Of a stretch of 42,113 nucleotides of DNA, positions 7,439-15,779 are shown piece by piece. The stretch covers positions 1 to 42,113 of the forward strand of contig JAJONO010000040.1 of NCBI GenBank assembly GCA_021323535.1, in the 5' to 3' direction. The position numbers and the translations under genes are program-made. This stretch comes from Bacteroidota bacterium (lineage in GTDB: Bacteria; Bacteroidota; Bacteroidia; B-17B0; Aurantibacillaceae). The first letter of the stretch is position 1. The number at the start of each line of letters is the position of its first letter. Below the pieces are notes generated by a model. The model was not told the DNA's origin. It saw only the letters and a program-made list of their open reading frames with translations, and did no database searches.

Positions 7439-8422
7439 GTGAAACAATACGAACATCTGTTCCGTCTTTTTCATTCGTACCTCGAACAGTACAGGATTGG
7501 CTTGCACAACAGGAAACCAGCCGAACTTTATAAACCCGAAGATTATATTCTTTCTCTCGGAGGCAAAAGATTACGTCCGCTTCTTGCCCTTATCGCCTGC
7601 GATTTGTTTGACCGCGCACCCGATAAAGCACTCGACTCCGCTTTATGCGTAGAGCTGTTCCATAATTTTTCATTGATACACGACGATATTCTTGACGCCG
7701 CCCCTTTAAGAAGAAACCAGGCAACTGTTCACACAAAATGGAACACTAATATTGCTATTCTAAGTGGCGATGTTATGCTGGTTAAAGCCTTTCATGTACT
7801 CAATAAATATTCACAGGAAGAATCGCGGGAACTCTCCTTTATTTTTTCGAACACGGCTATTGAAGTCTGCGAAGGGCAACAGCTCGACATGAATTTTGAA
7901 AGCATAGATGAGGTTACGGTTGACCAGTATCTTCACATGATAACCCTGAAAACCGCTGTACTGCTTGGTTGCAGCCTCAAGATGGGCGCCATTAATGCCG
8001 GTGCGCAGGAACTCGATCAACAGAATATTTATGAATTCGGAAAACACCTGGGCATTGCGTTTCAGTTATTGGATGATGTTTTAGATGCTTATGCCGGAAC
8101 ACCTGAATTCGGAAAACAAATAGGCGGAGATATTATAGCTAACAAAAAAACATATCTGCTTTTAAAAGCAACAGAACTGGCGAGCGACCGTCAGAAAAAA
8201 GAACTTGATCACTTATTAAAACTAGGTAAAGAATCATCACAGGAAAAAATTGCCGGAATAAAAGTTTTATTTGATGAGCTTCATGTAAAAGAACTTTGTA
8301 TTGAAAGAGCAAACAAGCATACCAGCATTGCTATCAATCATCTTAAAAATTTACCGGTGAGTGAATTCAAAAAAGAAAACCTGAGACAGTTTGCTCTCGA
8401 ACTTTTAAAGCGTAATGTTTAA
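7439..8422 (+). CDS. Trans-polyprenyl diphosphate synthase (GGPP/octaprenyl type)
   Basis: This 327-residue class I isoprenyl diphosphate synthase condenses isopentenyl diphosphate with allylic diphosphates. It begins with GTG at 7439. GGKRLRPLL (about 41-49) is the conserved IPP-binding region. The first aspartate-rich motif is DDILD (82-86) and the second is DDVLD (212-216). The first motif lacks the two-residue insertion of bacterial FPP synthases, and Phe77, five residues before it, is bulky, a position known to limit chain length in this family. A C20 or somewhat longer product is therefore plausible, but product length cannot be decided here. It lies between rmlA (3-base gap) and a thioesterase (1-base overlap), indicating one operon. 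Another isoprenoid gene, ispG, lies at 32385. Confidence 0.93.
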   Translation: MKQYEHLFRLFHSYLEQYRIGLHNRKPAELYKPEDYILSLGGKRLRPLLALIACDLFDRAPDKALDSALCVELFHNFSLIHDDILDAAPLRRNQATVHTKWNTNIAILSGDVMLVKAFHVLNKYSQEESRELSFIFSNTAIEVCEGQQLDMNFESIDEVTVDQYLHMITLKTAVLLGCSLKMGAINAGAQELDQQNIYEFGKHLGIAFQLLDDVLDAYAGTPEFGKQIGGDIIANKKTYLLLKATELASDRQKKELDHLLKLGKESSQEKIAGIKVLFDELHVKELCIERANKHTSIAINHLKNLPVSEFKKENLRQFALELLKRNV

Positions 8423-8844
8423 TGGAGTTCAACGATTACAAACATTATATTCCTATACAGATCCGTTTTAGTGATATCGACCGTCTTAATCACGTTAACA
8501 ACGCCTGCTACTTAAATTATTTTGAGTTAGGAAGAGTAAAGTATTTCAACGACGTTTTTAAAGACAACATTAACTGGAACGAAAAAGGATTTGTTCTTGC
8601 GCGCACCGAAATTGATCACATTGAACCGCTTTTTCTCAATGACGAAACCTATTGTTTCAGCAAAGTCATAAAGACAGGCACAAAAAGTTTAACGATTAAG
8701 AACAGCGTGGTAAAAAAAGTAAACACACAAATGATCGAATGCGCCACTGGGATTGGAATATTAGTAGCGATGGATTATGTGAAGCAAGAAAGCATTGAAT
8801 TACCGGGGAAATGGGTGGAGTTGATAAATACGTTTGAGAAGTAG
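8422..8844 (+). CDS. Acyl-CoA thioesterase, 4HBT/YbgC-type hotdog protein
   Basis: This encodes 140 residues with a single hotdog fold. IRFSDIDRLNHVNNACYLNYFE (residues 13-34) contains the D-x-x-x-HVNN-x-x-Y signature of the 4-hydroxybenzoyl-CoA/YbgC/FadM thioesterases, where the Asp is the catalytic residue. It probably hydrolyses acyl-CoA thioesters in the cytoplasm; the exact acyl chain cannot be told. The ATG overlaps the stop of the upstream synthase (TAATG), so translation is probably coupled. The following 43 bases before the convergent gene hold a degenerate GCGAATT/GCGCAAATT repeat. Confidence 0.9.
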   Translation: MEFNDYKHYIPIQIRFSDIDRLNHVNNACYLNYFELGRVKYFNDVFKDNINWNEKGFVLARTEIDHIEPLFLNDETYCFSKVIKTGTKSLTIKNSVVKKVNTQMIECATGIGILVAMDYVKQESIELPGKWVELINTFEK

Positions 8845-8882
8845 TTTTGACGCGAATTGCGCAAATTAACGCCAATCTTTAG
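8845..8882. repeat. Degenerate intergenic GCGAATTGCGCAAATT-type repeat
   Basis: Between two convergent genes the sequence reads GACGCGAATTGCGCAAATTA followed by ACGCC. It consists of near-repeats of GCGAATT/GCGCAAATT/ACGCC. It resembles short intergenic repeat debris that I recall from other Bacteroidota genomes. No terminator-like T run is visible. Confidence 0.35.
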
Positions 8883-8887
8883 CAAAG

Positions 8888-10423
8888 TCACTTTAGGTTA
8901 TTTACATCAATAACAAACAACTGTTTTCCATCTGCAAAATAAATTCTGTCTTTTAAAACAACTGCGGGTTCTCCGGTAGTAAAGGTGTGAAGCAATTCGA
9001 AGTTTTCGCTGACAAGGATCGTTTTATTTTTCTGCGAAAGTAATTTCTTTCCACCCATCGTTTTATTGATCTTATACAACTCCGTGAAATGGTATTCGTA
9101 TTCAATACCACCCTTGTCCATCCCAAATACCTTTCCATGATCGGTTTTAAAATAAACCACATTATCATTGATAAAATTCAATGAAACGTAATATCCTTCT
9201 TTCTCTACGTAATAATCGTTTCCATTTATAAACTCGAGTAATCTTCCGAATTTAGGTTCGTAAAGATTCAGGATCGGATTGACTCTTGCTTCTTCATTCA
9301 CTTCCATTACAAGACTCTTATCACCTATGAGAATCGTGTTTTTGAATACAGTAACATCGGTAAGACTTCCCGAAAATTCATCATTCATATTGAGCGTAAC
9401 TGAGCCACTATGCTTATTGAACGCCATCACAAAAGGCTTGCCGCATAAAACAGTATTATCGTTGTATTGCGCCACGCCAAGGTTAACAAGCACAATGTTA
9501 TCTTTGATCTCCTGCAAAATACAACGTGAGACCGGGTACTTCGATAACTCTGACTGCCAAAGTAATTTCCCGGTTTTATCCAAGGCAATGATCCTGTCTT
9601 TCGCGGCAAAATAAATTGCATTGCTGCCAATTAAAATGGAAGAAGAGATCTGGGTGATCTTATTTTCTTCTTTCGACGTAATTATACCTTCATGATTTTT
9701 GTCATACGTGTTTTTATTGAAGGCGGAATACGTAAGCGGTTTATCTGTTTTTACAAATGTAGTTAAGGGATACGACCACACTAATCCTTTATGAATATTC
9801 ACGGCATGTAATCCACCAGCGGCAATAAGAATGGTGCTGTCGTTTAAATGAGCTACGTCGTTCCAGTCGCTGGCCCCGGTAACGGGAGCCGACCAGATAA
9901 CTGCTCCATCTCCAAGCTGAATACAACTTAACGCTGTTTCTGTTCCCGATTTAATTGCAGGGTTGTATGTTAAGCCCGAATTATTTTTTTCGATGGTATA
10001 AATAATTTTAGAAGGAAATTCTACCTGTTCATACCCAAGAGTTTTATTGAATCTGCTTGAACGTTTATCATTCGACAGGATCAGGTGTTCACCGGAAAGT
10101 TGAATATCGAGCTTTGTATCTTCAAGTAAACAACAGGCCGAATCATTTTGTTTAATCGTAAGATGAAAGCCTTTATTGGTATAGGATTTTCCGCTCGCGT
10201 CTTTCTGCCTTGTGCTTACAATAAGATTTCCGGTTGATGAATCTGCCGCCATTTTATAAACGGGGTGACTAAAACTAAAGGTCTTTGCAGAAAGGGTATT
10301 AATACTGATTGCCGAAGTTCCAATTGGCGTGTTGTACGTTTTGTAATAATTCACCGCGCTCTGTTGGAAGAGCTGAAGTGATACTAAACATAACAAAATG
10401 CAAAACGTATTTTTCATTCTCAT
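8888..10423 (-). CDS. Secreted PQQ-like beta-propeller protein of unknown function
   Basis: The start is set at the ATG at 10423 (511 residues; ATG 10417 is an alternative). A longer form from a TTG at 10447 is ruled out because that TTG lies inside a perfect TATCTTTG promoter box. The N-terminus is a signal peptide (MKNTFCILLCLVSLQLF). The body contains repeated blade-like strings such as IIALDKTGKLLWQSEL, VFGMDKGGIEYEY and LVMEVNEEARV, typical of PQQ/quinoprotein-like or WD-like propellers. No catalytic motif is seen. It is probably a periplasmic or surface-exposed binding or scaffold protein. It is transcribed on its own after a hairpin that follows the SpoIIE gene. The 362-residue protein at 22436 has a similar general design. 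Confidence 0.85.
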   Translation of the reverse strand: MRMKNTFCILLCLVSLQLFQQSAVNYYKTYNTPIGTSAISINTLSAKTFSFSHPVYKMAADSSTGNLIVSTRQKDASGKSYTNKGFHLTIKQNDSACCLLEDTKLDIQLSGEHLILSNDKRSSRFNKTLGYEQVEFPSKIIYTIEKNNSGLTYNPAIKSGTETALSCIQLGDGAVIWSAPVTGASDWNDVAHLNDSTILIAAGGLHAVNIHKGLVWSYPLTTFVKTDKPLTYSAFNKNTYDKNHEGIITSKEENKITQISSSILIGSNAIYFAAKDRIIALDKTGKLLWQSELSKYPVSRCILQEIKDNIVLVNLGVAQYNDNTVLCGKPFVMAFNKHSGSVTLNMNDEFSGSLTDVTVFKNTILIGDKSLVMEVNEEARVNPILNLYEPKFGRLLEFINGNDYYVEKEGYYVSLNFINDNVVYFKTDHGKVFGMDKGGIEYEYHFTELYKINKTMGGKKLLSQKNKTILVSENFELLHTFTTGEPAVVLKDRIYFADGKQLFVIDVNNLK

Positions 10424-10444
10424 GGGCTTATCCGATTGGGGCCG

Positions 10445-10452
10445 CAAAGATA
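10445..10452 (-). promoter_or_regulatory. TAnnTTTG promoter box for the propeller gene
   Basis: The minus strand reads TATCTTTG, an exact -7 box match, ending 21 bases before the ATG at 10423. It overlaps the alternative TTG start at 10447 and so excludes it. I saw no clear -33 box. Confidence 0.5.
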
Positions 10453-10461
10453 CTCTAAAAT

Positions 10462-10484
10462 TCAGGACTTTGGCGAAGTCCTGA
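10462..10484 (-). terminator. Perfect 9-bp hairpin after the SpoIIE gene
   Basis: TCAGGACTT and AAGTCCTGA form a perfect 9-base-pair stem with the 5-base loop TGGCG. It sits 17 bases past the stop of the phosphatase gene and just upstream of the next promoter. On the minus strand it is followed only by ATTTTAG, so it is a weak terminator or a different RNA structure. Confidence 0.5.
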
Positions 10485-10501
10485 GCAAATACTGGAGGAG
10501 A

Positions 10502-12283
10502 TCAGAACTTCACACCAATCACAAGCACATCGTCAACCTGTTCCTGGTCGCCCTGCCAGGTGGTAAGTGTAGTGTCGAGTCTTTGTTTTTGTTCGGCAGG
10601 ATCGAGTGTTGAAATTTCGGTAAGAAGTTTGCGGAAATTACCAACCATGAATTTTTTTCCTCTTGGTCCGCCAAATTGATCGGCATAACCATCACTGAAA
10701 ACAAATACCTGGTCACCTTTTTCCATTTTCAATGTATTGTTATCGAAATTGGATTTCTCGCCAACGAAAGCGCCGATAGGGAATTTATTTGCCTTATGTT
10801 CAACAAGTGTTCCGTTTCTCACGATATACAAAGGATTAAACGCGCCGGCGAATTGCAGTTCCAGCGTATCGTAATTGATACAGCAGAGGGTCATGTCCAT
10901 TCCATCTTTTGTTTCTTTACCCGACTTATCTGCATGAAGCGTATTCACAACACCCTCACGCAATCTATCCATGATCTCAGAAGGTTTTACAATGTCGGTA
11001 TTGTTGATAATGTCTTTCAGAATATTATGTCCCACAAGGCTCATAAACGCACCGGGAACACCGTGGCCGGTACAATCTACAGCTGCGAAGTAAACAAGGT
11101 TTCCTTTTTTCTCTATCCAGTAAAAATCACCGCTTACAATATCTTTTGGTTTATAAAGCACAAAAGATTTAGGTAATACCTGCGCGATAAAATTAGCCGG
11201 AGGAAGAATGGCTTCCTGGATACGTTTCGCATAGTGAATACTATCTGTTACCTGTTTATAGAGAATTTCAAGTTCTTCATTTTTATTTTCGATCTCCTCT
11301 TTTTGTCTGACAACTTCCTCGGTACGTTCAATTACTTTTTGTTCGAGCTCACGTTCGTTCTTAGCAAGATCGTCACGCATTTTAATGAGAGCATGTCCTA
11401 ACGAATCGTCTTTGCTTAAAGGTGTGTATACCGCGTCAAAATCACCGGAACCTGTTTGTTTGGCAAATTCAGTTGTCTGCTGCATGGATTGTATGAGTTC
11501 ATTCAGCGCTGTTCCCATTTCACCGATCTCATCGTTAGAGGCGCGGATGCGTTCTTTAGGAAGAATACCAAGACCCATGGACAATAACATTTTTTTCAGC
11601 TTCTGGATCGGGCGTGTAATCGACTGGGTAGTTAATAACGCGATGAGAATACCACCAACAACAAGCGCGAAGCCAACGATCTGTACAAAGCGGTTCAGAA
11701 AATTAAATTTCTGAAACATTTCTTTTTTTACAGTTTCCGCGTGAACCTGTTTTGAAGCAATGAGTACATTCAGTTTCTGGTAGATCTTTTTGATGTTTAC
11801 CTCGGAATCTTCGTAAGGTAAACGCGCTAACATAAAAATGTTCGGATCCTCGTAAGCCTCAGTAGAGCTTAACTGGCTCATGATCTCATTCTGGTAACTC
11901 CTGAAAAGAGATTCAATTCTTCCGAAAATAACTTTAAGCTGACTTCTTTCATCCACGGTCCATGTCTGGGACAAATTCATTAGCGAATTTTTCTGTTTCG
12001 GATATTCCACCGAAATAATATTTTTGAGTTCTTCGCGGAATTCAATGTCGTTAAAGCTTTTATTGTAGAACCACTTCGAAATATCGGTGTGTGATCGCTG
12101 AAGTAAAAGGTTGAGTTCTTTTAGTTCGGCTACACTTGGTGTAACCTGGCCCACTACTATTTCGGTGCGTTGTTTACTTTTTGATACGGTAACTACGGTG
12201 AGAATAAAAGCCACCATAGTGAGGAGAATGAAACCGCCGAAACCAAAACCGATTCTCCTGCCTATTGTAAATCTATAAGCCAT
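10502..12283 (-). CDS. Membrane HAMP-coiled-coil SpoIIE/PP2C-type serine phosphatase
   Basis: The protein has 593 residues. A first membrane helix lies at about 14-36 and a mostly helical extracytoplasmic sensor (four-helix-bundle-like) at about 40-195. A second membrane helix follows at 199-219, then a HAMP linker (220-275), a coiled coil (300-348) and a C-terminal SpoIIE/RsbU-type PP2C phosphatase domain (355-593). Metal-binding aspartates are visible in DIVSGDFYW, AVDCTGHGVPGAFMS, FSDGYADQ and the final VDDVLVIG. Such enzymes dephosphorylate anti-sigma antagonists or similar proteins in partner-switching pathways. The gene follows the TPR gene with a 2-base gap in the YfiR-TPR-phosphatase operon, which suggests that the periplasmic YfiR-like and TPR proteins modulate its sensor domain. 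The downstream target is unknown. Confidence 0.92.
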   Translation of the reverse strand: MAYRFTIGRRIGFGFGGFILLTMVAFILTVVTVSKSKQRTEIVVGQVTPSVAELKELNLLLQRSHTDISKWFYNKSFNDIEFREELKNIISVEYPKQKNSLMNLSQTWTVDERSQLKVIFGRIESLFRSYQNEIMSQLSSTEAYEDPNIFMLARLPYEDSEVNIKKIYQKLNVLIASKQVHAETVKKEMFQKFNFLNRFVQIVGFALVVGGILIALLTTQSITRPIQKLKKMLLSMGLGILPKERIRASNDEIGEMGTALNELIQSMQQTTEFAKQTGSGDFDAVYTPLSKDDSLGHALIKMRDDLAKNERELEQKVIERTEEVVRQKEEIENKNEELEILYKQVTDSIHYAKRIQEAILPPANFIAQVLPKSFVLYKPKDIVSGDFYWIEKKGNLVYFAAVDCTGHGVPGAFMSLVGHNILKDIINNTDIVKPSEIMDRLREGVVNTLHADKSGKETKDGMDMTLCCINYDTLELQFAGAFNPLYIVRNGTLVEHKANKFPIGAFVGEKSNFDNNTLKMEKGDQVFVFSDGYADQFGGPRGKKFMVGNFRKLLTEISTLDPAEQKQRLDTTLTTWQGDQEQVDDVLVIGVKF

Positions 12284-12285
12284 GG

Positions 12286-13188
12286 CTAATCCAGTTTAAT
12301 ATTTAACTCCTTACACTTTTTGAGAAACTCGTCTTGTTTTGCAGCATCGTTCATCATGCGGTAGATGTAGTAAAGAGCAAGTACCGCTTTTTCGTTTTTA
12401 GGTTCTTTCTTATAAACTTTAAAAATGAATTGTTCCGACTGTTTTGCCAGTTTCACAATATTTTCCTGGATGGCGTCTATCTGTGAAAGATCGGCGCCAT
12501 AGTCGAGTGATTTAGCAAGATTGATCCCCTGGTTAAGATACATCAATCCCATGTTCATGTTTGCAGGTGTATTATCGGGCTGCAGGTCGAACACTTTCAG
12601 AAAAGCTAATTTGGCAACTTCCTGTGCTTTTTCGTTCTTATTGTCTTTGTTGAAAATATCCGAGAATACGCTTCCTACAGCGTTGTAGTATTCAATATCC
12701 CTTGAAGCAAAATTGGTATCAGGTTTCGCGATCATGAAAAGTTCTTTGCATTTATTATAAGCGAAAGCGCTTCGTTTATCGTTGATAGAATCCTGGAGTA
12801 ATGTTTTAGCGATGTTGTAGTAATGTGTGGAAAGGCTGACAAGCAGTCTGCGGTTATTGTTCATGTAATCCGCATCAGGTTTTAACGCGTTTGACACTTG
12901 AAGAGAAGAAACGATGGTATCGCGGAGAGGTGAATTCAGTTTCGTTTTATCGCCGCGTTTATATATCTCAAAATAAATGTAGGCACGGGTGGTCCAGCTC
13001 ACAAAATCTCCTTTTGTCTCCGGGTGTTGTATAACGCTATCGATAGCCGCTTGTGCCAGGTCGGGGGTACGTGCCTGCAGCAATTGCTGGGCCCGGTTAA
13101 GCCTGTCTATCTGCGCAAAACCACTTATCCCCCATGTTACCATGAGGCCGAGGAAGAGGTTTTTTACTATGTAGCGCAAGTTGTTCAT
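12286..13188 (-). CDS. Secreted TPR-like protein
   Basis: This encodes 300 residues with a signal peptide (about 1-25, ending GFAQ). The rest is helical, with tetratricopeptide-like units: the pairs around RAQQLLQARTPDLAQAAID, ALKPDADYMNNNRRL, LFMIAKPDTNFASRDIEYYN, VFDLQPDNTPANMNMGLMYL and KEPKNEKAVLALYYIYRMM. It should lie in the periplasm or on the outer membrane and act as a protein-protein adaptor. It sits between the YfiR-like gene (12-base gap) and the HAMP-SpoIIE gene (2-base gap), so it probably belongs to the same signalling system. No enzymatic motif is seen. Confidence 0.85.
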   Translation of the reverse strand: MNNLRYIVKNLFLGLMVTWGISGFAQIDRLNRAQQLLQARTPDLAQAAIDSVIQHPETKGDFVSWTTRAYIYFEIYKRGDKTKLNSPLRDTIVSSLQVSNALKPDADYMNNNRRLLVSLSTHYYNIAKTLLQDSINDKRSAFAYNKCKELFMIAKPDTNFASRDIEYYNAVGSVFSDIFNKDNKNEKAQEVAKLAFLKVFDLQPDNTPANMNMGLMYLNQGINLAKSLDYGADLSQIDAIQENIVKLAKQSEQFIFKVYKKEPKNEKAVLALYYIYRMMNDAAKQDEFLKKCKELNIKLD

Positions 13189-13200
13189 CTTACTGTTTTT

Positions 13201-13701
13201 TTAATCAACGTTTATTGCTAGTGCCTTAAAGTCATCATTTGTTTTTAATCCCGCTTTCACGGCGTTATTTTTACTGTATTCAAATTTCAGTTTGTTCTCT
13301 ACAATTAAGAAGTTAATGCTTGAGCCCGATTTGCAGGCGTTTGCGTTCTCAGCTACAAGAAGCGTTCCTTTGCTTTTGTTTTTAGATGCCACGTCTTTCA
13401 CCGCAGATGAAACATCCGGTAACAGGTAAATGATCTGCGAACTAATGGAAGGATCGAATGTGGCCGAGTTTTTCACCTCAATATCCTGGGCGCCTACTTT
13501 CTTTTTGGAAGCCAGCGTCTTTAACTCGTTAATAAGATTATCGTTCTTACCAACAATGTACACAATAAAGTTTCCGGTCTTTTTTTTATCGGGCCATTCG
13601 AAGTAGCGTGTAAAGTTGTAGAGGAACACCGCCTTAATCTTAGCGTTGGTATCAAAGTTACTTGGCTGTTGGAATCGTAACGACAACAGGCACAGTACCA
13701 A
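13201..13701 (-). CDS. YfiR family (DUF4154) periplasmic protein
   Basis: This encodes about 166 residues. The features KAVFLYNFTRYFEWP near the N-terminus and INFLIVENKLKFEYSKNNAVKAGL near the C-terminus are typical of the YfiR/DUF4154 family. In Pseudomonas, YfiR is a periplasmic inhibitor of the membrane diguanylate cyclase YfiN; here no GGDEF protein is present and the operon instead encodes a HAMP-SpoIIE phosphatase. The start is uncertain: the listed TTG at 13701 leaves a short signal peptide (MVLCLLSLRF). The frame is open for 12 more codons, and a CTG at 13728 would give the better leader LKRGHKYLLLVLCLLSLRF. No ATG or GTG is available. A promoter lies at 13749-13778. It is the first gene of a three-gene operon. 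Confidence 0.85.
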   Translation of the reverse strand: MVLCLLSLRFQQPSNFDTNAKIKAVFLYNFTRYFEWPDKKKTGNFIVYIVGKNDNLINELKTLASKKKVGAQDIEVKNSATFDPSISSQIIYLLPDVSSAVKDVASKNKSKGTLLVAENANACKSGSSINFLIVENKLKFEYSKNNAVKAGLKTNDDFKALAINVD

Positions 13702-13748
13702 TAGCAGATATTTATGACCTCTTTTCAGTGCGAAATTTTCCTAATTTA

Positions 13749-13778
13749 CAAATATAGTATTTGCTTTTACAATGGCAA
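13749..13778 (-). promoter_or_regulatory. Bacteroidota-type promoter of the YfiR-TPR-SpoIIE operon
   Basis: On the minus strand TTG (13776-13778) is separated by 19 bases from TATATTTG (13749-13756), an exact -7 box. The leader to the start region at 13728-13701 is 20-50 bases. It lies in the 118-base divergent spacer shared with the ECF sigma factor gene. Confidence 0.55.
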
Positions 13779-13819
13779 TTATAGTTTATTTGGTAAATTA
13801 GCACTAAAATAAACCATAC

Positions 13820-14407
13820 TTGCTGGTTAACTCAAAATACAAAGACTATTCCGATAATGACCTGATTAACAAATTTTTAGAATCAGGTGATAATTCTTTT
13901 GTAGGAATACTGTATGAAAGGTATGGTCATCTCGTGCTTGGTTTATGCATTAAGTACCTCAAGAACAAAGACGAAGCACAGGATGCGGTGATTCAGATCT
14001 TCACCAATCTGATGAATGATCTGAAAAAGCATAAGATCGAGTTTTTCAAGAGCTGGCTGTATGTTTACAGCAAGAATTTCTGTCTTATGGAGCTCAGAAA
14101 ACGTCAAAGTACGTTAAAAAAAGAGCTGGAGTTAAAAGAAAATGTGCATCTGGTTATGGATTTTTCGGATCCGCAGCATCTCCATGAAAAAGAACAACAG
14201 ATTTCGGTTATGGAACGTGCACTGGAACAGTTGAACGGCGAGCAGAAACGCTGTATTGAGCTGTTTTACCTGAAGAATAAATCCTATAACGAGATCATTG
14301 AAATTACCGGCTATTCGAATAACGAGGTGAAGAGCCATATTCAGAACGGTAAGCGGAATTTAAAGTTAAAAATGGAAGCTATAATTAATGGAGGAACACA
14401 AACATAA
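13820..14407 (+). CDS. ECF-family RNA polymerase sigma factor
   Basis: This 195-residue sigma-70 family protein is of ECF type. Region 2 includes VLGLCIKYLKNKDEAQDAVIQIF, where the L-x-x-K-x-D-E-A-x-D-A pattern is the core-binding and -10 recognition helix. Region 4 includes LNGEQKRCIELFYLKNKSYNEIIEITGYSNNEVKSHIQNGKRNL, the usual helix-turn-helix. It starts at TTG 13820; no ATG is available between the upstream stop and the conserved core. Its last 20 bases overlap the next gene, an anti-sigma-like membrane protein, so the two are co-translated and probably form a regulatory pair. It is divergent from the YfiR operon and may share its control region. Confidence 0.92.
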   Translation: MLVNSKYKDYSDNDLINKFLESGDNSFVGILYERYGHLVLGLCIKYLKNKDEAQDAVIQIFTNLMNDLKKHKIEFFKSWLYVYSKNFCLMELRKRQSTLKKELELKENVHLVMDFSDPQHLHEKEQQISVMERALEQLNGEQKRCIELFYLKNKSYNEIIEITGYSNNEVKSHIQNGKRNLKLKMEAIINGGTQT

Positions 14408-15779
14408 TCATAAAGATTTTGAAGATCTTCTGCGAAACATGAAGACCGGCAAAACCGACAATCTCGACGATTTTGAACGCGAGGCATTGGAAGGTTTTGA
14501 CACGTTGGATTCGCAGGAAGAAGCTTTAAATACAAAAGCCGAATTGGATAAGAGGATCCATGCAGAGCTTTTTACTGAAGAAAAGCGGAGGCGCCCTGTA
14601 GCTTACTGGTTCGCGGCCGCCGGCTTGTTCCTTGTTATAGGATTGAGCGTACTTTTTGTAATGAACAATAAAGATTTAAAAGGCGATGCTGTTGCCGATA
14701 CCGGTAATAAAGAAACAAAAAGTCTTGAAGAAAAAGTGGCCCTCTCTGCTCCCGTTGAAGAAACTACGGTTACAAGTACCGACGAACGGAAAACCAATCA
14801 AACTGAAATTAAACCTGAAACCGGAAAAACAAAAAACATAAGTGATACAAAAGATCAGTCAGGTGATCTGAAAAGAGATGAAGATAAAAAAGAAGACGCG
14901 TCAAATTCCCGAATGATTACCGGAAAAGGACCAACACAAAGTCCCGAATTTAAAGCGAACCCAAACGCTCCAAAAGAAGACATCACTTTTTCTTCTTCAA
15001 GAAACGACGCTAAAACCACACCTGTTGTTGTAAATGGCGAGCTCGCTAAACAAGCCAGCGAAAGGGCCAACGATGAATCTAATGTAAAGGACGCTATGCT
15101 TGACGGATTAGCGGATAACAGAGAGAAAAAAGAAGAAGCTGAAAAAGCTCCAATGAAAGAAAGAGCCGTTTTAAAAATGCAGGAGAAGGTCTCGCAAAAA
15201 GACAAAGAGAGCGAGAGAGACGATTATAAAAAAGAAGCGAAAGCAAAAGAAAAACAGAGCCGTAAAAAATCTGCGGAAGAAACCAAATCTATGCCCGCGA
15301 GTTCTGTCCCTTCTGGGTACGCTGAAAACGAAAGTGATAAAGGCAAATATGATAAAGACGCAAACTCAACCATTGCCACAGGTTCCGCAACGAAACTTGA
15401 GAATACTGTCACAATAACAGAATCGGATGGAAAAAACAAAGTTGTGAATGGACAAGCCGAAACAGTGGCAGTCAACGGTGGTGTTGTTTACTGGAATGCT
15501 AACGAAAACCAGTGTTACTATGTGGGCGGAAAAGATCAGATGAGCAAAGACATCAGCGAAAAACTCATGGCAAAAAAAATTATTAAAAAGTTCGATGTTA
15601 TTCTAAGCATCAACGAAAAGAAAAAAGTCGAGAAAGTGTTTTATCTGAACGTTTACGACCTTACAAAAGATGAACAATCGAAGGTGACCGATGTTTTAAA
15701 ATCTCTGAACAAATTCGATTATCACATTCAGCCGAATACAAAAGGATTATCGGAGTATAAGTTGGAATACCGACCGTAA
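14388..15779 (+). CDS. Anti-sigma-like single-pass membrane protein with TonB-like C-terminal domain
   Basis: The protein has 463 residues and overlaps the sigma gene by 20 bases. Residues 1-68 are cytoplasmic and acidic, without a zinc-binding motif. A membrane helix spans about 70-92. Residues 100-340 form a long charged K/E/D/S-rich linker, presumed periplasmic. The final 100 residues contain CYYVGGKDQMSKDISEKL followed by beta-strand-like FDVILSINEKKKVEKVF and TDVLKSLNKF, which resembles the order of elements in a TonB C-terminal domain, though degenerate. The position after an ECF sigma factor and the topology suggest that it holds the sigma factor at the membrane; the TonB-like end could bind an outer-membrane receptor or envelope component. 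Both functions are inferred. Confidence 0.8.
   Translation: MEEHKHNHKDFEDLLRNMKTGKTDNLDDFEREALEGFDTLDSQEEALNTKAELDKRIHAELFTEEKRRRPVAYWFAAAGLFLVIGLSVLFVMNNKDLKGDAVADTGNKETKSLEEKVALSAPVEETTVTSTDERKTNQTEIKPETGKTKNISDTKDQSGDLKRDEDKKEDASNSRMITGKGPTQSPEFKANPNAPKEDITFSSSRNDAKTTPVVVNGELAKQASERANDESNVKDAMLDGLADNREKKEEAEKAPMKERAVLKMQEKVSQKDKESERDDYKKEAKAKEKQSRKKSAEETKSMPASSVPSGYAENESDKGKYDKDANSTIATGSATKLENTVTITESDGKNKVVNGQAETVAVNGGVVYWNANENQCYYVGGKDQMSKDISEKLMAKKIIKKFDVILSINEKKKVEKVFYLNVYDLTKDEQSKVTDVLKSLNKFDYHIQPNTKGLSEYKLEYRP

Follow-up and report, generated by a model that had tools for sequence, protein, structure and literature searches.

A YfiR-like protein, a TPR-like protein and a HAMP-SpoIIE phosphatase encoded together in Bacteroidota: a putative periplasm-to-cytoplasm relay

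The operon and its products

Within the window (the whole 42,113-nucleotide stretch of DNA that was analysed), three genes lie on the minus strand in one operon, in the order YfiR-like periplasmic protein (13201..13728), secreted TPR-like protein (12286..13188) and HAMP-SpoIIE membrane receptor phosphatase (10502..12283), with intergenic gaps of 12 and 2 bases. The original prediction had described this operon with these gaps, and the open reading frames and Pfam matches confirm it. On the plus strand, a divergent ECF sigma factor gene (13820..14407) is followed by a gene (14388..15779) whose product, judged by position and a hydrophobic stretch seen by eye, is possibly a membrane anti-sigma factor; in Pfam it matched nothing, and in NCBIfam nothing above cut-off. 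Of the 81 loci of the same order, 56 have the ECF gene next to the operon, versus 7 of 98 loci elsewhere in the class (selected by TPR match, among the matches listed), and we regard this gene as an order-specific neighbour outside the core module.

The YfiR-like protein belongs to the DUF4154 family (PF13689, 88.7 bits, cut-off 24.9), and hhalign aligned it with E. coli YfiR at 96.3% probability (E 1.8e-9). It scored below the cut-offs of NF053586 (regulatory sequestration protein YfiR; 20.9 bits versus 85) and NF053591 (TOL_0243-type YfiR-like; 91.9 bits versus 125). When PDB sequences were searched with this profile, YfiR chains came up weakly (E 0.17-0.27), and the homology therefore rests on Pfam and hhalign. 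The top rows of that search, with Cps2A at E 0.0036, cover about 40 residues and were not taken as evidence of relationship. Two conserved cysteine pairs are given as a feature of YfiR in the accessible parts of two papers (PMC4655355, PMC3375315); here they are not conserved, no cysteine being invariant or nearly invariant among 33 orthologues.

The TPR-like protein has an N-terminus that resembles a signal peptide by eye. Although no Pfam TPR family scored above cut-off, its structure model is all-helical (pLDDT 89.7) and resembles TPR solenoids in the PDB, with low TM-scores, and an alpha solenoid is predicted.

The receptor is arranged as a membrane helix, the sensor, a second membrane helix, a HAMP domain (residues 218-269, 11477..11632, minus strand; PF00672, 28.7 bits), a coiled coil and a SpoIIE phosphatase domain (residues 397-592, 10508..11095, minus strand). 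The last of these is a member of the SpoIIE/PP2C family (PF07228, 75.5 bits, cut-off 25) with its acidic motifs intact: D386, D403, D463, D531, D584 and D585 are invariant in a 24-row alignment, and such aspartates bind the metal. Pfam gave no GGDEF match in the receptor, whose output is SpoIIE instead. The best NCBIfam model was SiaA (NF038263), which matched the C-terminal half (residues 264-593) at 213.3 bits, far below its cut-off of 700, so that the receptor is not assigned to that family.

The sensor (about residues 34-198, 11690..12184, minus strand) is modelled as a helical bundle at pLDDT of about 81-96, and is predicted to be a periplasmic four-helix bundle between the two membrane helices. 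Its model matches 4HB ligand-binding domains in the PDB, including, by their titles, chemoreceptor domains solved with small ligands. Foldseek alone found nothing with an E value of 0.001 or below (its best match, NarQ, had 1.3e-3), and the sensor stayed below the PF02203 TarH cut-off (14.2 bits versus 25.2). The periplasmic part of YfiN had been thought comparable with that of this receptor, and here the likeness fails: there was no CHASE8 (PF17152) match in the receptor at E up to 1, whereas E. coli DgcN gives 115.7 bits, and hhalign of the sensor against the CHASE8 sensor of DgcN returned a probability of 0.2, no detectable likeness. What the two proteins do share is the plan of a membrane HAMP receptor.

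Conservation of the triplet and of its upstream region

The original prediction had made conservation of the three genes together a test of its proposal, and they are indeed kept together. In the order, 74 of 81 loci carry the triplet in the same order on one strand, and five of the seven misses are contig ends; this set was compiled without G044, G045 and G082, which gave weak or partial hits. Elsewhere in the class the triplet is present at 97 of 98 loci among the matches listed; a strong TPR match was the basis for selecting these loci, so that the figure measures the surroundings of the TPR gene, and the selection omits weaker rows as well as second TPR copies in genomes already represented (G106:C3, G300:C16, G337:C2). 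A contig scan, which is a sample, gave the full triplet at 10 of 23 loci among the matches listed. At one locus (L203), the phosphatase gene is not adjacent to the YfiR-TPR pair. An apparent YfiR-TPR fusion in L226 (a 564-aa frame) was discarded as merely an overlapping open frame in G+C-rich DNA.

A start-column alignment of orthologues places the conserved YfiR start at a CTG (13726-13728). Probably this CTG, rather than the ATG/GTG/TTG start proposed by the ORF tool (13701), is the true start. For the TPR and phosphatase genes, the start-codon control was run with a script favouring ATG.

TAnnTTTG is the Bacteroidota -7 consensus. An exact promoter box of this type, TATATTTG, lies at 13749..13756 on the minus strand, as had been claimed, with a TTG 19 bases upstream of it at 13776-13778. 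Among 65 loci of the order with CTG, TTG, ATT or ATA in the YfiR start column, TAnnTTTG ends 10-30 nt upstream in 39, compared with 2.15 expected from shuffles, an enrichment that bears out the claim. Broken down by start codon, the motif was found in this interval at 31/31 CTG, 3/3 ATT, 1/2 ATA and 4/29 TTG loci; in the genus, all 31 CTG-start loci have its end 16-25 nt before the CTG, and in many loci of other genera the box is further upstream.

Pairing of YfiR with the sensor class

When 395 genomes of the class were searched with a sensor-only profile and a YfiR profile, 134 had both, 6 the sensor only, 15 YfiR only and 240 neither. At least 113 genomes of the class carry the YfiR-TPR pair, and outside these the same profiles gave 21 with both, 6 with the sensor only, 15 with YfiR only and 240 with neither. 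By hand tally of all the listed sensor matches not belonging to a triplet, 24 of 38 have a YfiR gene no more than about 3 kb away and 14 have no YfiR nearby. Twenty sensor regions were fetched, 14 of them chosen for a YfiR already listed nearby; the six chosen without a known YfiR (G327, G302, G431, G218, G108, G100) included two that had one (G327, G108). Receptors outside the triplet keep the half consisting of membrane helix, sensor, membrane helix and HAMP, while their outputs are hybrid histidine kinase, PAS histidine kinase, MCP, GAF-PAS, GAF or SpoIIE. The window genome itself has 94 SpoIIE matches, and both of its YfiR genes adjoin SpoIIE receptors bearing the four-helix sensor; a third, weaker sensor match is also present.

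Since sensor and YfiR co-occur and the sensor carries varied outputs outside the triplet, YfiR probably docks on the four-helix sensor. Among the PDB relatives of the sensor are helical sensors crystallised with a docked periplasmic protein, XylFII-LytSN (Z 16.0, 1.7 A) and TorT-TorS (Z 13.9, 3.0 A), as their titles indicate. When 170 paired sequences (an effective number of 121, a shallow alignment) were put through a mean-field coupling analysis, 1.37% of YfiR-sensor pairs were above z 3, versus 0.75% in a phylogeny-matched control pairing YfiR with the cytoplasmic domain; in the same shallow alignment the top pair was stronger in the control (9.36 versus 8.07).

This lack of a clear contact signal in a shallow analysis, together with the 14 sensors without a nearby YfiR and the small ligands of the chemoreceptor domains, would suit an explanation in which YfiR and the TPR protein are accessory proteins co-expressed for another reason (e.g. 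envelope maintenance), making no contact with a sensor that binds a small molecule like other 4HB domains. We consider this unlikely, as YfiR is tied to the sensor class across different outputs and also where the TPR gene is missing. In L307, L309, L310, L312, L315, L318 and L352-L366, YfiR is paired with the same sensor class and the fetched flanks contain no TPR match. The same loci argue against the TPR protein being the direct receptor ligand with YfiR controlling only the TPR protein, an arrangement that we find very improbable even though within the triplet the conservation of the TPR gene is just as strict as that of the YfiR gene.

In Pseudomonas, YfiR controls the diguanylate cyclase YfiN, and YfiR has been studied as a c-di-GMP regulator. 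The YfiBNR/TpbB systems of Pseudomonas and E. coli resemble the operon described here in that the gene of a periplasmic DUF4154 protein immediately precedes that of a membrane HAMP receptor, with a third envelope protein in the operon. They differ in their output (GGDEF, here SpoIIE), in their sensor (CHASE8, called PAS in papers, here a predicted four-helix bundle) and, at the level of the operon, in their third gene (the OmpA-like lipoprotein YfiB, here TPR-like).

The idea that YfiR has here been given a phosphatase in place of a c-di-GMP output holds in part: the link between YfiR and the sensor persists across different outputs, but a non-GGDEF output under YfiR is not new in kind. Modular YfiR receptors with GGDEF-EAL, HPT, histidine kinase and MCP outputs were described in 2012 (Malone et al., PMC3375315). 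Those divergent YfiNR systems likewise have a YfiR-controlled receptor with exchangeable outputs, although SpoIIE is not named among them, and the sensor is described as PAS-like, in the accessible parts of that paper, where Rhodothermus, in a supplementary legend, is the sole member of the Bacteroidota mentioned. Receptors of the NCBIfam family HK_near_YfiR_like (NF053592) are also, by the model's name, encoded next to a YfiR-like protein, whereas the receptor in the window matches this model at its HAMP end only (13 bits, cut-off 194). A SpoIIE output, a four-helix sensor and a TPR partner of YfiR were not found among the papers listed in searches of the literature on YfiR, DUF4154 and Bacteroidota SpoIIE.

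TorT-TorS and XylFII-LytS differ from our proposal in having histidine kinases as receptors and, docked on them, binding proteins with a fold unlike that of YfiR. What these systems have in common with it, as read from PDB titles, is that a helical sensor domain forms a complex with a periplasmic protein.

A possible relay and the partners of the phosphatase

We favour, as a reasonably probable reading, a relay from periplasm to cytoplasm in which YfiR docks on the sensor and sets SpoIIE activity, the TPR protein is a second periplasmic part and the substrate is SiaC-type. The secreted YfiR-like protein would dock on the periplasmic four-helix bundle; docking would set the conformation of the HAMP domain and, through it, the activity of the cytoplasmic phosphatase, with repression as the default sign of YfiR control. 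The TPR protein, made and secreted together with YfiR, might bind or sequester it or carry an envelope signal, and in this way fill the position of YfiB in the Pseudomonas system. The SpoIIE enzyme would most likely dephosphorylate a SiaC-type phosphoprotein phosphorylated by a SiaB-type kinase. A wider reading, to which we give an even chance, is that YfiR is a general periplasmic ligand for four-helix receptors in Bacteroidota (with SpoIIE, hybrid histidine kinase, chemoreceptor and GAF-PAS outputs), with TPR proteins or TonB-dependent outer-membrane receptors acting upstream and the SpoIIE form gating a SiaB/SiaC switch.

To our knowledge, the inputs and targets of Bacteroidota SpoIIE phosphatases are mostly unknown, and these phosphatases can be very numerous, as in the window genome; the relay would name the input (YfiR, TPR), the receptor and a likely substrate for one of them. 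If true, it would mean that, in a large section of the Bacteroidota, YfiR-type control passes through a different sensor fold and leads to the dephosphorylation of proteins.

STAS/anti-sigma partner switching had originally been predicted, and SiaB/SiaC are more likely partners, judging from gene content and gene order, because the window genome has four SiaC matches over cut-off and six SiaB matches (five of the six over cut-off), versus two STAS proteins and one strong stand-alone RsbW-type kinase, and siaB-siaC lie directly upstream in the operon at three loci of one genus (L206, L214, L216). Two further loci of this genus (L204, L212) have no siaB-siaC in the fetched flanks. SiaC was found in 113 of 113 YfiR-TPR genomes (among the matches listed) versus 100 of the 282 other genomes of the class, an association that may merely mark SpoIIE-rich lineages, the genomes not being independent samples.

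The search of the genome for STAS or anti-sigma partners, which had been proposed as a check, thus did return candidates, although they are encoded elsewhere than in the operon of the window. They would suit a partner switch of the RsbV/RsbW type, in which the same receptor has a STAS anti-sigma-antagonist as the substrate of its phosphatase; an RsbW-type kinase gene just upstream of the triplet copy in L111 and the ECF gene so often adjoining the operon in the order would also agree with it. We nevertheless judge such a switch improbable in view of the SiaB/SiaC evidence, and the flanks fetched for the remaining triplet loci showed no STAS or RsbW gene (searched with models built from proteins of the window genome, and over 1.5 kb only for the first 30 loci).

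Another close system is SiaABC(D) of Pseudomonas aeruginosa, which likewise has a HAMP-SpoIIE phosphatase, a SiaB-type kinase and a SiaC-type phosphoprotein, the latter two being present in the window genome. The differences are the low SiaA score, the added YfiR and TPR genes and a phosphatase gene that is usually apart from siaB/siaC. At one locus (L357), two siaB-type genes lie directly downstream of YfiR and a SpoIIE receptor.

Conservation of the three-gene operon

On the reverse strand of the window, a YfiR-like gene (proposed CTG start at 13726-13728, end at 13201; DUF4154 (YfiR), 88.7 bits, above the Pfam cut-off) is followed after 12 bases by a TPR-like gene (12286-13188, -) and after a further 2 bases by the gene for a HAMP-SpoIIE receptor phosphatase (10502-12283, -; HAMP 28.7 and SpoIIE 75.5 bits, both above the Pfam cut-offs). 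An exact TATATTTG promoter box is present at 13749-13756 (-). Open reading frames, Pfam matches and coordinates bear out the layout, both gaps and the box described in the original prediction.

The same triplet, for which a survey of Bacteroidota genomes had been proposed, is conserved together. With the TPR protein as the bait, matches were obtained in 81 of the 87 genomes of the order, and 81 loci from 78 of the matching genomes were read. YfiR, TPR and receptor genes occurred in this order on one strand in 74 of the 81 loci. Five of the seven exceptions were cut by contig ends (L029, L066, L080, L083 and L113), one (L097) carried a TPR relative without the neighbouring genes, and the last (L114) carried a second TPR relative with a SpoIIE domain also within its open frame. 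The receptors were 52-69% identical to that of the window, and their acidic catalytic motifs were invariant in a 24-row alignment.

The class is presumably Bacteroidia, judging by its named relatives. In a sample of 395 genomes spread evenly over it, 149 had a match to the YfiR profile (E up to 1e-6), and strong TPR profile matches (E up to 5e-44) were found in at least 98 genomes outside the order. All 98 loci outside the order chosen by a strong TPR match were read, and 97 carried the triplet: 96 were recognized in full by script, and the 97th was L257, in which the profile match was split. In the sole miss, L203, the phosphatase gene did not adjoin the YfiR-TPR pair. Together with 15 sampled order members, at least 113 genomes have both proteins (YfiR-TPR genomes). 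A separate scan of named genomes gave 10 triplets among the 23 loci listed, and the triplet loci among those listed include metagenome-assembled Flavobacteriales and Salibacteraceae.

A divergent ECF sigma factor gene and a next gene with a hydrophobic stretch occupy 13820-15779 of the window. The ECF gene adjoins the operon at 56 of the 81 loci from the order versus 7 of 98 elsewhere in the class, and its start codon is TTG in 27 of the 30 genus loci counted. On the 3' side of the phosphatase gene, a beta-propeller (PQQ-like) protein is encoded at 8888-10447 (-), as at the same place in L067, L068 and L069.

A sensor class shared by receptors with different outputs

Receptor residues 1-310 were modelled from 19 sequences, and the sensor model (mean pLDDT 86.7, pTM 0.59) has long helices at 7-73, 81-107, 110-135 and 147-237, with HAMP next. 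In a Foldseek search of the PDB, nothing reached E 0.001; NarQ came nearest, at 1.3e-3. VIA-align superposed the model on four-helix ligand-binding domains (Z 15-16, 1.7-2.2 A; MCP2201, LytSN in complex with XylFII, HK9 and Vc1313) and on the TorS sensor in complex with TorT (Z 13.9, 3.0 A); because helical bundles generally score high with this tool (its warning lies at about 13), these matches were used for fold only. In E. coli DgcN (YfiN), a CHASE8 domain occupies the sensor position (115.7 bits), whereas a four-helix bundle is predicted here: CHASE8 had no Pfam match in the window receptor at E up to 1, and the sensor profile did not align with DgcN (hhalign probability 0.2). The window's YfiR-like protein itself aligned to E. 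coli YfiR with an hhalign probability of 96.3%. These comparisons make the two YfiR proteins homologous and the sensor unlike YfiN's, so that the likeness to YfiN drawn in the original prediction does not extend to the periplasmic part.

Searched with a profile of the sensor alone (residues 34-198, 35 rows), 140 of these 395 genomes gave a match. Sensor and YfiR were both present in 134, sensor only in 6, YfiR only in 15 and neither in 240. Without the 113 YfiR-TPR genomes, the counts were 21, 6, 15 and 240, an odds ratio of 56, the genomes being related and the p-value not literal. A hand tally of the 38 sensor matches listed outside triplets placed 24 of them no more than about 3 kb from a YfiR gene and left 14 with none that close; no YfiR was seen in the flanks read around the sensor genes of L371 (GAF-PAS), L367, L368, L369, L304 and L316. 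Receptors adjoining YfiR but with other outputs retained the TM-sensor-TM-HAMP half, the non-SpoIIE ones scoring 127-264 bits with the phosphatase profile. Outputs beside YfiR were hybrid histidine kinase (L352, L358, L361, L364, L366), PAS histidine kinase (L353), MCP (L354), GAF (L359), GAF-PAS (L307, L309, L310, L312, L315, L318, L365; some below the PAS cut-off) and GAF-SpoIIE (L357). In the window's own genome, which has 94 SpoIIE matches, both YfiR genes adjoin SpoIIE receptors that carry this sensor; the genome's third and weaker match to the sensor lay outside the matches listed. Judged from profiles and gene neighbourhoods, YfiR is associated with the sensor class and not with the output domain. 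The genome with the MCP chemoreceptor of this sensor class beside YfiR (G330) has six YfiR matches.

In one group, YfiR lies before or after a TonB-dependent receptor gene, with a SpoIIE or other receptor bearing this sensor alongside. A Plug domain was detected in L063, L355, L356, L358, L361, L362, L366 and L370, and L363 has the same arrangement by gene layout. The own genome's second YfiR gene (L063) is of this kind: at 7524-12036, YfiR and the TonB-dependent receptor gene share one strand and the sensor-HAMP-SpoIIE gene is divergent, as also in L355, L356, L362 and, judged by layout, L363. A relay from outer-membrane receptor to phosphatase is possible for this layout.

Excerpts from Malone et al. 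(2012, PMC3375315) present a modular YfiR-YfiN core whose output can be GGDEF-EAL, HPT, kinase or MCP, describe the YfiR-bound sensor as PAS-like, and report four YfiR cysteines strictly conserved in complete YfiBNR systems; an excerpt from PMC4655355 describes YfiR cysteine pairs and a shared YfiB/YfiN surface. In contrast, no cysteine was invariant among the 33 YfiR orthologues aligned here. Modular YfiR receptors with exchangeable outputs are thus already known, and our literature search did not find the SpoIIE output, four-helix sensor class, TPR partner, SiaB/SiaC link or class-wide spread in print. These features are apparently new, and we therefore regard this as a new form of YfiR receptor system.

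Candidate substrates of the phosphatase

In the own genome (5.3 Mb), 94 SpoIIE-domain matches stand against four SiaC matches, two STAS matches and one strong stand-alone RsbW-type kinase, the last among 19 HATPase_c_2 matches (nine above the cut-off). SiaB had six matches, five above the cut-off, and SpoIIE genes adjoin SiaB/SiaC genes on contigs C23, C44 and C49. The search for STAS or anti-sigma partners suggested by the original prediction yielded candidates, and a STAS substrate would agree with the gene for an RsbW-type kinase that immediately precedes a second copy of the triplet (L111, 5993-6409, -). However, SiaC was present in 113 of 113 YfiR-TPR genomes versus 100 of 282 other class genomes, and siaB and siaC lie directly upstream of the triplet, in the order siaB, siaC, YfiR, TPR, phosphatase on one strand, in three loci of one genus (L206, L214 and L216, the siaC frame of L216 being short). 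No siaB-siaC link was seen in the flanks read of two more members of this genus (L204, L212); in L357, two siaB-type genes lie 3' of YfiR and the SpoIIE receptor. Because of the SiaC/SiaB counts, the co-occurrence and the operon links, we favour SiaC over STAS as the substrate, with the L111 gene counting against it. SiaC of P. aeruginosa has the diguanylate cyclase SiaD as its target, and c-di-GMP may still have a part in the pathway proposed here.

YfiR start codon and the TPR protein

Within the window's genus, 31 of 37 loci (L003-L028, L030, L031, L064, L066, L067) have CTG in the YfiR start column; of the other six, two have ATT, one has ATA and three have a different codon. In other genera, the same column is TTG in 29 of 39 loci. 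For 24 of the CTG loci, the reading frame contains no ATG, GTG or TTG from the preceding stop codon up to the CTG. In all 31, TAnnTTTG ends 16-25 nt 5' of the CTG, and the leader is therefore short. As a control, among the further leucine codons of the 40 alignment columns that follow, CTG accounts for 23 of 129. CTG is probably the start codon, given the conserved column, the lack of upstream starts in most loci, the box spacing and the low CTG use in the control. At the same loci, ATG starts 33 of 37 TPR genes and 35 of 36 phosphatase genes counted, by a script that prefers ATG. A weak CTG start may keep YfiR scarce, and gene callers limited to ATG, GTG and TTG will mis-start the gene.

The TPR-like protein was modelled as an alpha solenoid (11 sequences, pLDDT 89.7). 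Its best PDB matches were designed and natural TPR proteins with low TM-scores, so the model supports the fold class alone. The TPR gene is retained in SpoIIE triplets and was absent from the neighbourhoods read around the other YfiR receptors; the third gene place beside non-triplet YfiR receptors is taken by a TonB-dependent receptor in some. By analogy of gene position, the TPR protein could do the job of YfiB, sequestering YfiR. Two genomes from a different family encode, beside the triplet and divergently from it, a protein (L210, 172-2398, -; L228, 220-2452, +) with what is by eye an OmpA-like C-terminus, which recalls Pseudomonas YfiB.
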